NCBI GenBank assembly: GCA_902543245.1
Contig: CACBXQ010000004.1
Coordinates: 23,828 to 87,827, forward strand
Direction of reading: 5' to 3'
Source of the DNA: an uncultured Pelagibacteraceae bacterium
Lineage (GTDB): Bacteria > Pseudomonadota > Alphaproteobacteria > Pelagibacterales > Pelagibacteraceae
Length of the DNA stretch: 64,000 nt
Positions within the stretch are counted from its first letter, which is position 1. Each line of letters starts with the position of its first letter. A program made the position numbers and the translations under genes. The notes below the pieces were generated by a model. It searched no databases. It was not told the DNA's origin and was given only the letters and a program-made list of their open reading frames with translations. Of this stretch, positions 6,073-20,459 are shown one piece after another.

Positions 6073-7070
6073 CTAAAATTTTTAATTAAAGTTTCTGCAA
6101 TTTCAACTGCATTAAGTGCCGCTCCTTTTAATAAATTATCTGAAACAATCCATAAATTTATTGTATTTTCTTGTGATTCATCTTTTCTAATTCGAGAAAT
6201 AAATGTTTCATACTCGTTTTCAGCTTCAACTGGAGTTACATAACCACCATCTTCCATTTTATCAACAAGTTTACACCCAGGTGAACTACCAAGAACATTT
6301 CTTATTTCATCTAATTTATATTTCCTGTTAAACTCAACATTTACACTTACAGCATGAGAAACTAAAACTGGAATTCTTACTGAGGTAGATGTTACTTTTA
6401 TTTTGGTATCTAATATTTTTTTAACCTCATCATGCATTTTTTGTTCTTCTTTGGTATAACCATTATCTAAAAACTTATCTATGTGAGGTATTGCGTTAAA
6501 TGCAATCTGTTTAGTAAAATATTTTGATTTTAGTTCTTTATTTTCATAAAATTCTTTTGTTTGTGATAATAGCTCGTCCATTGCTGACTTGCCTGCACCA
6601 GAAACAGATTGATAAGTTGAAGCTACTATTCTTTTAATATCATATAAATCATGTAATGGTTTAAGTGCAACAACTAAAGGTATTACTGAGCAATTTGCGT
6701 TTGCTATAATATTTTTATTTTTATAAAGTTTTAGGTGTTGTGAATTTACCTCTGGCACGACTAAAGGAACATCTGGATCCATCCTAAAATTTTTTGAGTT
6801 ATCAATTACTATAGAATTTTTTGCTGCAACTGGAGCCCATTTCTCTGCAATTGCTGAACCAGCAGCAAAAAAAGTGATTTCAGCTTTAGAAAAATCATAA
6901 TTTTCAATATCGTGAATCATATGATCTTGATTTTTAAAATGTATTTTTTTTCCAGCACTTTTAGGAGATGCAATTAAGTATATATTATCAAATGCAAAGT
7001 TTTTCTTTTGTAAAACTTCTAAGAGTTTTCTACCAACATTTCCTGTTGCGCCTACTATTGCTATATTCAT
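6069..7070 (-). CDS. asd: Aspartate-semialdehyde dehydrogenase
   Basis: 333 aa; GATGNVGRKLLEVL, NANCSVIPL active site, YQSVSGAGKSAMDEL. Confidence 0.95.
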   Translation of the reverse strand: MNIAIVGATGNVGRKLLEVLQKKNFAFDNIYLIASPKSAGKKIHFKNQDHMIHDIENYDFSKAEITFFAAGSAIAEKWAPVAAKNSIVIDNSKNFRMDPDVPLVVPEVNSQHLKLYKNKNIIANANCSVIPLVVALKPLHDLYDIKRIVASTYQSVSGAGKSAMDELLSQTKEFYENKELKSKYFTKQIAFNAIPHIDKFLDNGYTKEEQKMHDEVKKILDTKIKVTSTSVRIPVLVSHAVSVNVEFNRKYKLDEIRNVLGSSPGCKLVDKMEDGGYVTPVEAENEYETFISRIRKDESQENTINLWIVSDNLLKGAALNAVEIAETLIKNFR

Positions 7071-15511: not shown

Positions 15512-16060
15512 TTATTTTTTCTGTTCTGAGCTTTCATTTTTTTGCTCATTTTCTATTTTTACGTCTTCTTGAGCATCTACTGCTTGTGTTGCCTCTTTTT
15601 CATTTGGCGGGTCAGCTTCAACAGCTTTAACTACATTTGTCTCTTCAACAACTTCTGGTTTAACCTCTACATCAATACCTATTTTCTTTTTAATTTTCTC
15701 AGCAATTCTTGCAGATTTACCTGTTCTATCTCTTAAATAATATAATTTTGCTCTTTTTACTTTACCTGACCTTATAACCTGAATTGATCCAATGATAGGG
15801 CTATATAGAGCAAAGGTTCTTTCTACACCCTCACCAAAAGATATTTTTCTAACTGTAAAAGATGAATTTAAATCCCTACTTTTTTTTGCAATACAAACAC
15901 CTTCAAAATATTGAATTCTGTCTCTTTTACCCTCAGTTATTCTAACTCCAACTTTTACTATATCTCCAGGAAAAAACTCGGGTATTTTTTTTTCGCTAAT
16001 AATTTTTTTTAAATTTGCTTGATTAATTTCTTCTATATTTTTCATTTCTAAGTATATCAA
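15512..16060 (-). CDS. rplS: 50S ribosomal protein L19 with acidic C-terminal extension
   Basis: 182 aa; [32 protein letters not shown]...[18 protein letters not shown]-type L19 core, then a low-complexity Glu/Val/Lys tail. Confidence 0.94.
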
Positions 16061-16061
16061 A

Positions 16062-16748
16062 TTAATTCTTTTTATATTTTTGCCACAAATCTGGTCTTCG
16101 GTCGCGTGTTATAGCCTCTGATTGAGATAAACGCCAGTCTTTAATTTTCGCATGATCTCCTGATAAAAGTACCTCTGGAACCGTCATTTCCTCCCAAATT
16201 TGAGGTTTTGTGAACTGTGGATACTCTAAAAGTCCATTTTCAAAACTTTCATCTTCTGTAGAATTTTTATTTCCTAGTATACCTGGTATATATCTTAATA
16301 TTGCATCTAGTATGGCATAAGCAGCTGTTTCCCCTCCAGACAATACAAAATCTCCTATGCTTATTTCCTGTATATTTTTTTTTATCAAAACTCTTTCGTC
16401 GATGCCTTCAAAATGTCCACATAGCAAATTAATGACTTTTTGATTTGATAGATCTTTTGCAATTTCATGATTAAATAATTTTCCTCTAGGACTTAAATAA
16501 ATTATTTTTTCTGATTTTTTAATATTATCCTCAATTGCTCTTGATATGATATCTGGTCTCATCAACATTCCTGATCCACCTCCGTATGGAGTATCGTCGA
16601 CTGTCTTATGCTTATCAGTAGCATAATCTCTTATATTTACTTTTTCTAATTCCCATATTTTTTCTTTCAATGCTTTTCCAAAAAGTCCCTCATTAAATGG
16701 TCCAGGAAAAAGTTCAGGGTACAAAGTAAAAATTCTAGCCTTAAACAT
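16062..16748 (-). CDS. trmD: tRNA (guanine-N1)-methyltransferase
   Basis: 228 aa; [40 protein letters not shown]. Confidence 0.97.
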
Positions 16749-16750
16749 TT

Positions 16751-17185
16751 TTATTTTTTTTCTTCAGCTTTTGGTGCCTCTGCTTTTTTTTCTTCAGCTT
16801 TTGGTGCCTCTGCTTTTTTTTCTTCAGCTTTTTTTTCTTCAGCTTTTGGTTCTTCAGCTTTTTTTTCTTCAGATCCCTCTTTTTTTCTTTCTTTTTTAGG
16901 AATAGCTTTTTTAGGATTGTTTCCTCTCTCTGGCATAGGCATCAACTCATTTTCACCTAAAATTCTAGCAACTCTTGTTGTGGGTTTAGCGCCTTGCCCA
17001 AGCCAATATTTTATTCTATCTGGCTCTAATCCTACTCTCTCTTTCTTCTCTTTTGGAAGTAATGGGTTAAAGAAACCTAATTTTTCAATAAATCTTCCAT
17101 CTCTTGCAAATCTACTGTCAGCAACGACAATTTTATAGACTGGCCTTTTTTTTGTTCCACCCATAGATAATCTAAGTTTTAACAT
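16751..17185 (-). CDS. rpsP: 30S ribosomal protein S16 with repetitive Lys/Glu/Ala C-terminal tail
   Basis: 144 aa; [42 protein letters not shown] core; tail [39 protein letters not shown]. Confidence 0.96.
16754..16872. repeat. Short tandem direct repeat encoding the [10 protein letters not shown] tail of RpsP
   Basis: 16771-16800 and 16801-16830 are identical 30-mers (ttggtgcctctgctttttttttcttcagctt-type unit), flanked by degenerate partial copies. Confidence 0.9.
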
Positions 17186-17200
17186 TTTATTCTCCTTTTA

Positions 17201-18559
17201 TTATTTCATTTGGTTAAAAAGTTCTGGAGGTATTCCTTTATCCGCCAAACCTTGAGTATTTCCTTTAGACATTTTTTTCATCATTTCTGACATCATTTTA
17301 AATTGTTTTAACAATTTATTGATAGTGGCAATGTCTGTGCCTGAGCCATTAGCAATTCTTTTTTTCCGAGAACCATCAATTAACTTTGGATTTTCTCTTT
17401 CCTTTTTGGTCATTGACAATATTACAGCCTCATTCTGAGTTATTATTTTTTCATCTACTCCCGCTTGATCCATTTGAGATTTTATTTTTGATACTCCTGG
17501 TAGAAAAGACATTAAGCCTTCAATGCCTCCCATTTTTTTCATCTGTTTAAGCTGAGATAAATAATCCTCGAGTGTGAATTGACCTTTCTTTAATCTTTCT
17601 TCTGTTTTTTTTAGTTTTTCTTCATCTACATTCTCTGATGCTTTTTCAACAAGAGTAACTATATCTCCCATCCCTAATATTCTATTAGCAATTCTATCTG
17701 GGTAAAAAACTTCTAAATTTTCTACTTTTTCACCTACGCCTAAAAATTTAATTGGGACATCTGCAACATATTTCATACTTAAAGCTGCACCACCCCTTCC
17801 ATCTCCATCTGATCTAGTTAAAATTATTCCAGAAAGATTTACAGTATTTTTAAATTCCTTTGCAACATTTGCAGCAACTTGACCGGTTAAAGAATCGGCA
17901 ACTAATATTGTTTCTGAAGGTTTAATTATATCTTCTATTTGTTTAATTTCATTCATCATCTGTAAATCAATTTGAGTACGTCCAGCGGTATCAAATAATA
18001 TTACTTCGGATCCATTTAAACTTGCTGCACTTAAAGCTCTTCTACAAATATCACTTGGTAGCTGGCCTTCAATTATTGGAAGAGTATTAATATTATTTTG
18101 CTCACCTAACAATTTAAGTTGCTCTTGGGCTGCGGGTCTATATACATCCAAACTTACCATCATTATTTTTTTCTTTTTATTTTTTTCTAAAAATTTTGCT
18201 AATTTTGATGTTGTCGTAGTTTTTCCAGATCCCTGTAAGCCAACTAACATTACAGATACAGGAGGGACTGCATTAAGATTAATTTCTACATTTTTATCAC
18301 CTAGCAATGATACCAGTTCATCATAAACTATTTTAACTACCATCTGTCCTGGTGATGTTGATCTTATAATTTCTTTTCCTAAAGCTTTAGGCTTAACTTT
18401 TTCTATGAAATCTTTTGCAACATCAATTGAGACATCAGCTTCTAGTAATGCTAATCTTATTTCCCTAAGACCTTCATCTACTTGCTTTTCATCTAATGAA
18501 GGAGCTTTTTTTAAAGAAGTAAAAATTCCTTCGAATTTATTTGTCAAATTATCAAACAT
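17201..18559 (-). CDS. ffh: Signal recognition particle protein Ffh (SRP54)
   Basis: GLQGSGKTTTTSKLAKFL, DTAGRTQIDLQMM, C-terminal M-domain with Met-rich segment. Start placed at ATG 18559 (MFDNLTNKFEGIF); the ORF track uses an in-frame GTG at 18568. Confidence 0.96.
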   Translation of the reverse strand: MFDNLTNKFEGIFTSLKKAPSLDEKQVDEGLREIRLALLEADVSIDVAKDFIEKVKPKALGKEIIRSTSPGQMVVKIVYDELVSLLGDKNVEINLNAVPPVSVMLVGLQGSGKTTTTSKLAKFLEKNKKKKIMMVSLDVYRPAAQEQLKLLGEQNNINTLPIIEGQLPSDICRRALSAASLNGSEVILFDTAGRTQIDLQMMNEIKQIEDIIKPSETILVADSLTGQVAANVAKEFKNTVNLSGIILTRSDGDGRGGAALSMKYVADVPIKFLGVGEKVENLEVFYPDRIANRILGMGDIVTLVEKASENVDEEKLKKTEERLKKGQFTLEDYLSQLKQMKKMGGIEGLMSFLPGVSKIKSQMDQAGVDEKIITQNEAVILSMTKKERENPKLIDGSRKKRIANGSGTDIATINKLLKQFKMMSEMMKKMSKGNTQGLADKGIPPELFNQMK

Positions 18560-18664
18560 ATTTTTCACCCAGCAGTTAACGCACCAGTGGGCGAACCCTC
18601 GCTAACTGGTGTCGATCTCTTTGTTACCAAAGACACCGCAAAATGCTGTTTTTTGCGGAAACTT
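18560..18664 (-). ncRNA. Structured 5' leader of ffh (probably the described Pelagibacter ffh cis-regulatory RNA motif)
   Basis: Minus strand reads CCGCAAAA-AACAGCA-TTTTGCGG (8-bp hairpin), then GTGTCTTTG-GTAA-CAAAGAGATCGACAC, then CACCAGT-TAGCGA-GGG-TTCG-CCC-ACTGGTG, immediately before the ffh start. Locally GC-richer than surroundings. A candidate cis-regulatory RNA preceding the SRP protein gene was reported for Cand. P. ubique; correspondence is from memory and unverified. Confidence 0.82.
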
Positions 18665-18670
18665 GAACAA

Positions 18671-18676
18671 ATTATA
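18671..18676 (-). promoter_or_regulatory. Candidate -10 element (TATAAT) for the ffh leader transcript
   Basis: Minus strand ...TTGACTTTTTGAACCTCTATTATAATTTG...; perfect TATAAT about 10 nt before the first leader hairpin. The TTGACT upstream is only 14 nt away, so the -35 is uncertain. Confidence 0.5.
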
Positions 18677-18720
18677 ATAGAGGTTCAAAAAGTCAATAAA
18701 TAAGTTACATATCTAAATAT

Positions 18721-19542
18721 ATGGAATTTAAAGCTTTTAAAATGGACGGTCTTGGAAATGACTTTATAATTATTGATGAAAGATTTGATAAAATTAATCT
18801 GAGAAATAACGACATAATAAAAATATGTAGTAGAGAATTCATTGGTTGCGATCAATTAATTATTATAAGAGAATCTGATCGAAATGATGCAGAATTAATA
18901 TTTTATAATTCAGATGGAAGTCTGGCTGGAGCTTGTGGAAATGGAACAAGATGTGTTGCTTACCTTTTGTCAAAAGAAAACAATAAAAAACTGATAACTC
19001 TAAAAACTTTAGGTGGTATCCTTGAGTCAAAAATTTATGAAAATCAAATTGTTGAAACAAAAATAGGTCCAGCGAAACTAGGATGGGCAGATATTCCTCT
19101 TAAAGAAAAAATGGATACTAGAAATTTAAACTTTAATTTTGAAGATATTCAAGTTGAAATGAAAAATGGTACTGCAATAAATGTTGGAAATCCACATGTG
19201 GTATTTTTTGTAGATGAACTTGAAAAATTTAATATTGAAAAAATAGGACCTAAAATTGAAAACCATAATTTTTTTCCAGAAAAATGTAATGTAACAATTG
19301 CAAAAAAGGTTAAAGAAAATCATATTAAATTAAAAGTTTGGGAAAGAGGGGCTGGACTTACAAAAGCTTGTGGCACAGCAGCTTGTGCAACAGCTTTGGC
19401 TGGTAAAATTAACAATTTAATAAAATCCCCAGTAAATCTTGTATTTGAATTAGGTAAACTTGAAATAAATATTGACGATAATAATTTTATCTCTATGAAA
19501 GGACCTGTTTCAAAAATACAGGAAATTAAAATTAATTTTTAA
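18721..19542 (+). CDS. dapF: Diaminopimelate epimerase
   Basis: 273 aa; KMDGLGNDFIIID, GNGTRCVAY, GAGLTKACGTAACATA. Confidence 0.97.
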   Translation: MEFKAFKMDGLGNDFIIIDERFDKINLRNNDIIKICSREFIGCDQLIIIRESDRNDAELIFYNSDGSLAGACGNGTRCVAYLLSKENNKKLITLKTLGGILESKIYENQIVETKIGPAKLGWADIPLKEKMDTRNLNFNFEDIQVEMKNGTAINVGNPHVVFFVDELEKFNIEKIGPKIENHNFFPEKCNVTIAKKVKENHIKLKVWERGAGLTKACGTAACATALAGKINNLIKSPVNLVFELGKLEINIDDNNFISMKGPVSKIQEIKINF

Positions 19543-20459
19543 TGAGTATATTTGAAAAATTTAAATTAGGTTTTAAAAAAAGTGCATCAAATATTGCATC
19601 TGGGCTAAAAGAAATAATAATAAAAAAAGAAATTGACGACAATACTCTTGACAAAATTGAGGAGTTTTTAATTAGCGCAGATGTTGGGGTCGACGCTTCC
19701 AGTGATATTAGATCAATCCTATCAAATAAAAAAATAGATTCTAATTCTGAACCAATTAATGAAGTAAAAAAAATACTTAATGAATATATAGTTGAGCTAA
19801 TGGAGCCTTTAGAAAACAAAAGCATTTTTGAAACAAAAGATTATTTAAATGTAACTTTAGTTTCTGGTGTAAATGGAGTTGGAAAAACAACAACAATAGG
19901 AAAAATAAGTAAAATTCTTAAAAATAATAACAGAAAAGTAGTATTAGGGGCTTGTGATACATTTAGAGCTGCAGCAATAGAACAATTAGAAACATGGTCT
20001 CAAAAAATAGGAGTAGAAATAATAAAGTCTGAAGCTAAAGCAGACCCTGCGTCTGTAGCTTACAAAACTTTAGAATATGCAAAAAATAACTCTTTTAATG
20101 ATGTTCTGCTTGATACAGCTGGAAGACTTCAAAATAAAAAAAATTTGATGGATGAATATAAAAAGATTGCAAATGTACTAAAAAAATTGGACTCAAAAGC
20201 TCCTCAAGAAGTTATTCTTGTACTAGACTCAACTTCTGGTCAGAACGTTATTAATCAAGTAGAAGAATTTAATAAAATTATCCCTCTTACTGGTCTTATA
20301 ATGACAAAATTAGACGGAACAGCAAAAGGTGGGGTATTAATAGCGGTAGCGAAAAAATTTAAATTACCCATAATTTGTTTAGGTCTTGGTGAAAAAGAGG
20401 ATGATTTGCAAATTTTTGATGCCAGGATATTTGCTGATGCGTTCACACAGATCAATTAA
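19542..20459 (+). CDS. ftsY: Signal recognition particle receptor FtsY
   Basis: 305 aa; SGVNGVGKTTTIGKI, GACDTFRAAAIEQLE, DTAGRLQNKKNLMDEYKKI. Confidence 0.96.
   Translation: MSIFEKFKLGFKKSASNIASGLKEIIIKKEIDDNTLDKIEEFLISADVGVDASSDIRSILSNKKIDSNSEPINEVKKILNEYIVELMEPLENKSIFETKDYLNVTLVSGVNGVGKTTTIGKISKILKNNNRKVVLGACDTFRAAAIEQLETWSQKIGVEIIKSEAKADPASVAYKTLEYAKNNSFNDVLLDTAGRLQNKKNLMDEYKKIANVLKKLDSKAPQEVILVLDSTSGQNVINQVEEFNKIIPLTGLIMTKLDGTAKGGVLIAVAKKFKLPIICLGLGEKEDDLQIFDARIFADAFTQIN

Follow-up and report, generated by a model that had tools for sequence, protein, structure and literature searches.

The leader RNA upstream of ffh has been linked by name to the signal recognition particle (SRP) since 2009, without a ligand, and the locus described here raises the question of which gene in its operon this RNA serves. 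Meyer et al. (PMC2704228) described the ffh motif as a single bulged hairpin located in the same gene interval in Cand. Pelagibacter ubique. A literature search for autoregulation of ffh or for a ligand of the ffh leader returned only that paper and lists of expressed transcripts.

Organization of the locus

The DNA analyzed, referred to as the window, is a 64,000-nucleotide stretch from a SAR11 genome of the Pelagibacteraceae (family f1). In the window, dapF and ftsY are encoded on the plus strand, and ffh, rpsP, trmD, and rplS are encoded divergently on the minus strand:

17201..18559, minus strand: ffh (SRP54 protein; Pfam PF00448, PF02978, and PF02881), with its start ATG at 18559 (MFDNL...)
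16751..17185, minus strand: rpsP (bS16; PF00886), the proposed true target and ligand gene
16062..16748, minus strand: trmD (PF01746)
15512..16045, minus strand: rplS (bL19; PF01245)
16751..16930, minus strand: low-complexity tail of bS16

The dapF and ftsY genes (18721-20459, plus strand), the latter encoding the SRP receptor, adjoin ffh, so that a single intergenic region is common to both SRP protein genes. The genome encodes its own 4.5S RNA gene, away from the leader. The tail of bS16 was long and of low complexity (Ala/Lys/Glu or Ala/Pro/Glu) in SAR11, in the PS1 clade (positions 6522-6765 of locus L230), and in genome G732 (about 640-949 of locus L301).

When the window was searched with all Rfam families (cmscan), a full-length match to RF01793 ("ffh") was found at 18573-18626 on the minus strand, scoring 48.5 bits against a gathering threshold of 35. 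This covariance-model check agreed with the preliminary description of this DNA, which had taken the leader to be the published ffh leader RNA of Cand. Pelagibacter ubique; each sequence quoted there was located on the minus strand, in or close to the position given.

A likely promoter was predicted from the sequence and from conservation ahead of the first hairpin in SAR11:

18669..18696, minus strand: likely promoter, TTGACT (18696-18691), 16 nt, TAATTT (18674-18669)

The TATAAT box proposed earlier is present (18676-18671) and overlaps the TAATTT, but the promoter with the strongest conservation in the order, as read by eye from the SAR11 sequences, was TTGAC(T/A)-16/17-TAnnTT, located a few bases 5' of the first hairpin. 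The TTGACT/TAATTT promoter was not called in a scan for consensus promoters.

Secondary structure of the leader

The structure was assessed in an alignment of 74 distinct SAR11 leaders, in which the two families of the order were represented. The elements in the window are as follows:

18636..18658, minus strand: P1 hairpin, CCGCAAAA-AACAGCA-UUUUGCGG, arms 18658-18651 with 18643-18636
18613..18638, minus strand: P2 hairpin, CGGU-G-UCUUUG [GUAA] CAAAGA-G-AUCG, 18638-18628 with 18623-18613 (RNAalifold)
18636..18638, minus strand: CGG shared by P1 and the base of P2
18612..18612, minus strand: one-base linker between P2 and P3
18582..18611, minus strand: P3, the published ffh hairpin, with a 7-bp stem, a C.C mismatch (U.C here), a variable pair, GCGA/UCGC, and a 4-nt loop
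18569..18574, minus strand: tail element UGCUGG

The window leader folded better than its dinucleotide shuffles (z = -2.41; 4/200). Together, P1, the distal part of P2, and P3 had 95.4% of cells paired across the alignment, compared with 36-46% in slid versions, and compensatory changes were found in P1, distal P2, and outer P3. The earlier view of a structured leader with three hairpins was thus upheld, and it was in the details of those hairpins that the comparison led to a different structure.

For P3, the comparison covered 76 sequences drawn from SAR11, from PS1, and from the rest of the alphaproteobacteria; 93.9% of cells were paired, and 11 of the 12 pairs showed two-sided changes. Its top, GCGA[NNNN]UCGC, was invariant in SAR11 and covaried in the wider class. 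The alternative top GGG[UUCG]CCC, which had been read from the window alone, was broken in 7-31 rows per pair and was rejected. Of the two conserved cytosines in P3, the 3' one is kept in the window and the 5' one is a U. The second position of the inner loop, adjoining the C.C mismatch, was A.C in most sequences and otherwise G.U, C-G, or U-A. A possible extension of P3, AUCG/CGAU, was 83.8% paired with one two-sided change and by eye was not kept in other alphaproteobacteria; for these reasons it was not adopted.

Across the class, P2 was commonly represented by a hairpin whose 3' end lies one base from P3. The mean energy of the best hairpin was lowest one base 5' of P3, with a modest advantage over neighboring positions, and the one-base linker was constant in SAR11, PS1, and many other alphaproteobacteria. 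Downstream of P3, a single-stranded tail was conserved whether ffh or rpsP came next, as UGYUGG in SAR11 and approximately GYUUUGG in other alphaproteobacteria. In G732 (L301, 343-400) the tail element GCGUUUUGCGUUGGGG is repeated two to three times between P3 and rpsP.

These features bear on whether the RNA has a specific ligand at all, as it might instead be a passive leader, with 5' hairpins that guard the mRNA or influence how ribosomes reach it, or else the precursor of a small RNA. P1 lies at the predicted 5' end, and transcripts of the region have been recorded, with no function given, in metatranscriptomes (PMC2704228) and in small-RNA or RNA-seq surveys, among them RNA-seq of Mesorhizobium (PMC5596092) and Bartonella (PMC7717549). 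A broken U run, slightly terminator-like, comes after P3 in some alphaproteobacteria. However, an intrinsic terminator after P3 was rejected for SAR11, where the U run is absent, and the sole terminator-like match on the leader strand in a terminator scan was P1 itself, at the 5' end. Nor would a plain stabilizer need the fixed C.C mismatch, the one-base linker, and the tail that are conserved throughout the class, or the invariance of GCGA/UCGC in SAR11, and we consider a passive role unlikely.

Overlap of P1 and P2

P1 was 95.6% paired over 7 pairs in the SAR11 leaders, with two-sided changes at 3 pairs; on the ffh tree, two independent compensatory events were found at pair 5-27. The distal pairs of P2 were likewise supported by compensatory changes among the 74 leaders. 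At the base of P2, the preliminary description had paired GUGUC with GACAC, which gave zero pairs with two-sided change and one pair broken in 32 of the 74 rows, and this base was rejected. RNAalifold instead extended P2 through CGGU/AUCG, which was 88.1% paired, compared with 30-51% in slid controls. In 32 rows, pair 32-48 of this base was CG instead of UA, a change on both sides, and this pair was never broken; pair 27-53 changed from CG to UA in 12 rows.

With the GUGUC/GACAC base lacking covariation, the competition between P2 and P3 through an overlapping CAC that had been built on it is unsupported. The broader idea that two helices of this leader compete survives in another form, as the pair concerned is P1 and the base of P2 rather than P2 and P3. 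Comparison of the leaders indicates that P1 and the P2 base both exist as helices, each supported by covariation, and because they share the three bases CGG they exclude each other there. Column 27 pairs with column 5 in P1 and with column 53 in P2, and a joint change from G-C-G to A-U-A was seen in a single 12-sequence clade; pair 5-27 changed once more, alone, outside that clade. In the window leader the two states were predicted to lie about 2 kcal/mol apart (-30.8 versus -29.1). Visual inspection of other alphaproteobacterial leaders showed a similar overlap in about twelve of them (CCGGAAG...CUUCCGGUCCC...GGGAUCG), while PS1 leaders have a separate AU-rich 5' hairpin without overlap. A switch between P1 and the P2 base may therefore be proposed, resting on one triple-covariation event and on the overlap visible in other leaders, with none in PS1.

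A loop-to-RBS pseudoknot had also been proposed, as CAGCA in the P1 loop (18648-18644) is complementary to UGCUG (18574-18570). Across the 74 SAR11 leaders this pairing was found in 51.8% of cells, compared with 29.6-48.5% in slid controls, and its covariation score was no better than that of the controls. When changes were mapped on a tree of ffh coding sequences, the loop columns changed 10-19 times and four of the five 3' columns 0-4 times. With pairing like that of the slid controls and no compensatory change, the pseudoknot was rejected as a conserved feature. In the window, CAGCA/UGCUG is possibly better viewed as a nested helix closing the state that contains P2 and P3, in which case the energy of that second, P2-whole state would be -33.9.

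Distribution of the motif

The motif was found in 348 of the 397 genomes of the order. None of twenty motif-less genomes that were checked had an assembled ffh start, and on this basis the motif appears to be universal in SAR11. With a new covariance model built from the class-wide P3 alignment (76 sequences), 246 of 387 alphaproteobacterial genomes were found to contain the motif, compared with 112 of 387 for RF01793, a gain that is partly by construction because some of the same 387 genomes had contributed to the training of the new model. Among 40 matches to the new model whose surroundings were examined, 39 were in the ffh-rpsP locus and one was truncated by a contig end. Only one genome, G402, contained two matches (L284 and L286). 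This genome shows 7% contamination, and its second match, which lies at the end of a contig, is probably a binning artefact.

Gene context of the motif

The order motif, ffh, rpsP was found in 76 loci, usually with rimM, trmD, and rplS behind. The motif is thus located before ffh in the window and in these 76 loci, but not in the PS1 clade or in G732, both of which still match the RF01793 family. In 12 genomes of the PS1 clade (family f41), dapF adjoins the motif, which is followed directly by rpsP, with no intervening ffh (PS1 loci L230, L231, and L255-L267 except L259; of 13 pattern matches, L259 was discarded, as it lay outside the locus with none of these genes near). In G732 (family f15), the motif is missing in front of ffh and lies instead between ffh and rpsP-rimM. 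By comparison across these arrangements the motif goes with rpsP, which was the only gene found behind it in every resolved context, the one remaining locus being truncated by a contig end.

PS1 is a free-living marine alphaproteobacterial clade in which the SRP (Ffh, FtsY, and 4.5S RNA) appears to have been wholly lost. In five whole PS1 genomes that were 93-97% complete (G435, G540, G620, G687, and G748), no Ffh, no SRP54-domain protein, and no 4.5S RNA were found, while all seven of the other genomes of the class searched as controls were matched. The absence of any SRP54-domain protein means that FtsY is absent as well. A literature search found no paper on SRP loss in this clade. In the PS1 leaders, 98.2% of cells in P2 and P3 were paired and four pairs had changed on both sides, which indicates that the structure is still under selection there. 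Judged by these genomes, the motif outlives the SRP.

This bears on the explanation suggested by the name of the motif (PMC2704228) and by its position ahead of ffh in the 76 loci, that the leader is a target of Ffh or 4.5S RNA, whose binding would regulate SRP protein synthesis by feedback. Such a switch, which had been the preliminary interpretation, cannot explain a motif that is kept under selection in PS1 without SRP components, or G732, where ffh is present and the motif is not attached to it. Furthermore, the leader does not resemble the Ffh site of 4.5S RNA, as its inner-loop pair varies to Watson-Crick. The SRP autoregulatory switch is therefore probably wrong, and we regard binding by Ffh or 4.5S RNA as very improbable.

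The other genes of the operon could be considered in the same way. RimM was not found in ten Pelagibacteraceae genomes that carry the motif and are 99-100% complete (G001, G003, G005, G007, G009, G011, G013, G015, G020, and G158). RimM appears to be absent from the Pelagibacteraceae (family f1), the window operon included, and is retained in the sister family f2. The trmD and rplS genes follow the motif in nearly all loci for which a long enough stretch was examined, and the ligand is often not the product of the first gene in known operons (PMC7247131). The leader could therefore regulate a ribosomal operon without bS16 as its ligand, being controlled by bL19, by TrmD, or by a general factor. 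In G732, however, trmD and rplS are on a different contig, with no motif nearby. Taken together, PS1, G732, and the genomes without RimM indicate that Ffh, RimM, and TrmD with bL19 are each dispensable for retention of the motif, the exclusion of TrmD and bL19 resting on one draft genome (G732). Control by another operon product or by a general factor, in place of bS16, is judged unlikely.

Comparison with known RNAs

The window leader resembles the published ffh motif (RF01793) in its type of locus, in its P3 hairpin with two conserved C residues, and in scoring above the gathering threshold. It differs in that the published motif is one bulged hairpin before ffh, whereas here it is joined by P2, which the RF01793 model does not contain, and in SAR11 and a few further lineages by P1. 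In addition, the inner-loop pair covaries, the range is approximately doubled at an equal cut-off, and the gene served is apparently rpsP.

A recent review (PMC10931766) lists rpsP-rimM-trmD-rplS as a rare ribosomal-protein operon whose regulation is not known. The closest parallel in gene context is the S16 leader of Flavobacteria, which precedes rpsP and rimM and for which bS16 is the proposed ligand (PMC7247131), as it is here. That leader is from another phylum, rpsP in alphaproteobacteria is usually separated from the leader by ffh, and the likeness is one of gene context. The L19 leader of Firmicutes and Flavobacteria precedes rplS, a ribosomal protein gene also found in the window operon, but it had no match in the window in the search with all Rfam families, and rplS is unlinked in G732.

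There is a short GUCAG similarity between 4.5S/SRP RNA (RF00169) and one strand of the P3 inner loop, and P2 in the window has a GNRA loop. However, imitation of SRP RNA was rejected, as there was no RF00169 match in the leader, the inner loop covaries to Watson-Crick pairs in some sequences, and the loops are not kept.

Proposed function

Because relatives without an SRP keep the motif ahead of the rpsP operon, production of ribosomal proteins is the likeliest target of control. The best reading of these comparisons, to which we give a probability of roughly 55%, is that this RF01793 member is the 5' leader of the ffh-rpsP-trmD-rplS operon, that it serves the supply of ribosomal proteins rather than the SRP, and that it is bound by bS16.

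We infer the ligand, the direction of control, the switch, and the role of P1 as follows. The RNA would alternate between two nearly equal states, one with P1 whole and the other with P2 whole beside P3. Free bS16, the product of rpsP, would bind the P2-P3 unit and favor the P2-whole state, and its binding would lower translation or stability of the operon mRNA. With the ffh ATG at 18559, the start codon is 22 nt 3' of P3. SAR11 leaders have no evident strong Shine-Dalgarno sequence, so a protein bound to P2-P3 could block initiation at ffh; expression of the whole operon might then be lowered through coupling or decay. As ffh and not rpsP is the first gene in most species, control by bS16 would need coupling, termination, or decay.

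A wider version of the bS16 reading is that the 'ffh' RNA is an autoregulatory leader found throughout the alphaproteobacteria, with a P1/P2 switch, which in most species ties the supply of Ffh and the SRP to that of ribosomes and has persisted in a marine lineage without an SRP. This may be so, and it is put forward tentatively, with the odds somewhat against it.

If the RNA goes with rpsP, Ffh is no longer the right protein to test. The corrected structure and wider range provide a testable ligand and a better search model, and the PS1 clade, having lost the SRP, offers a natural experiment that separates the SRP and rpsP hypotheses. If the leader does respond to bS16, ffh in most species would be under the control of a ribosomal protein.
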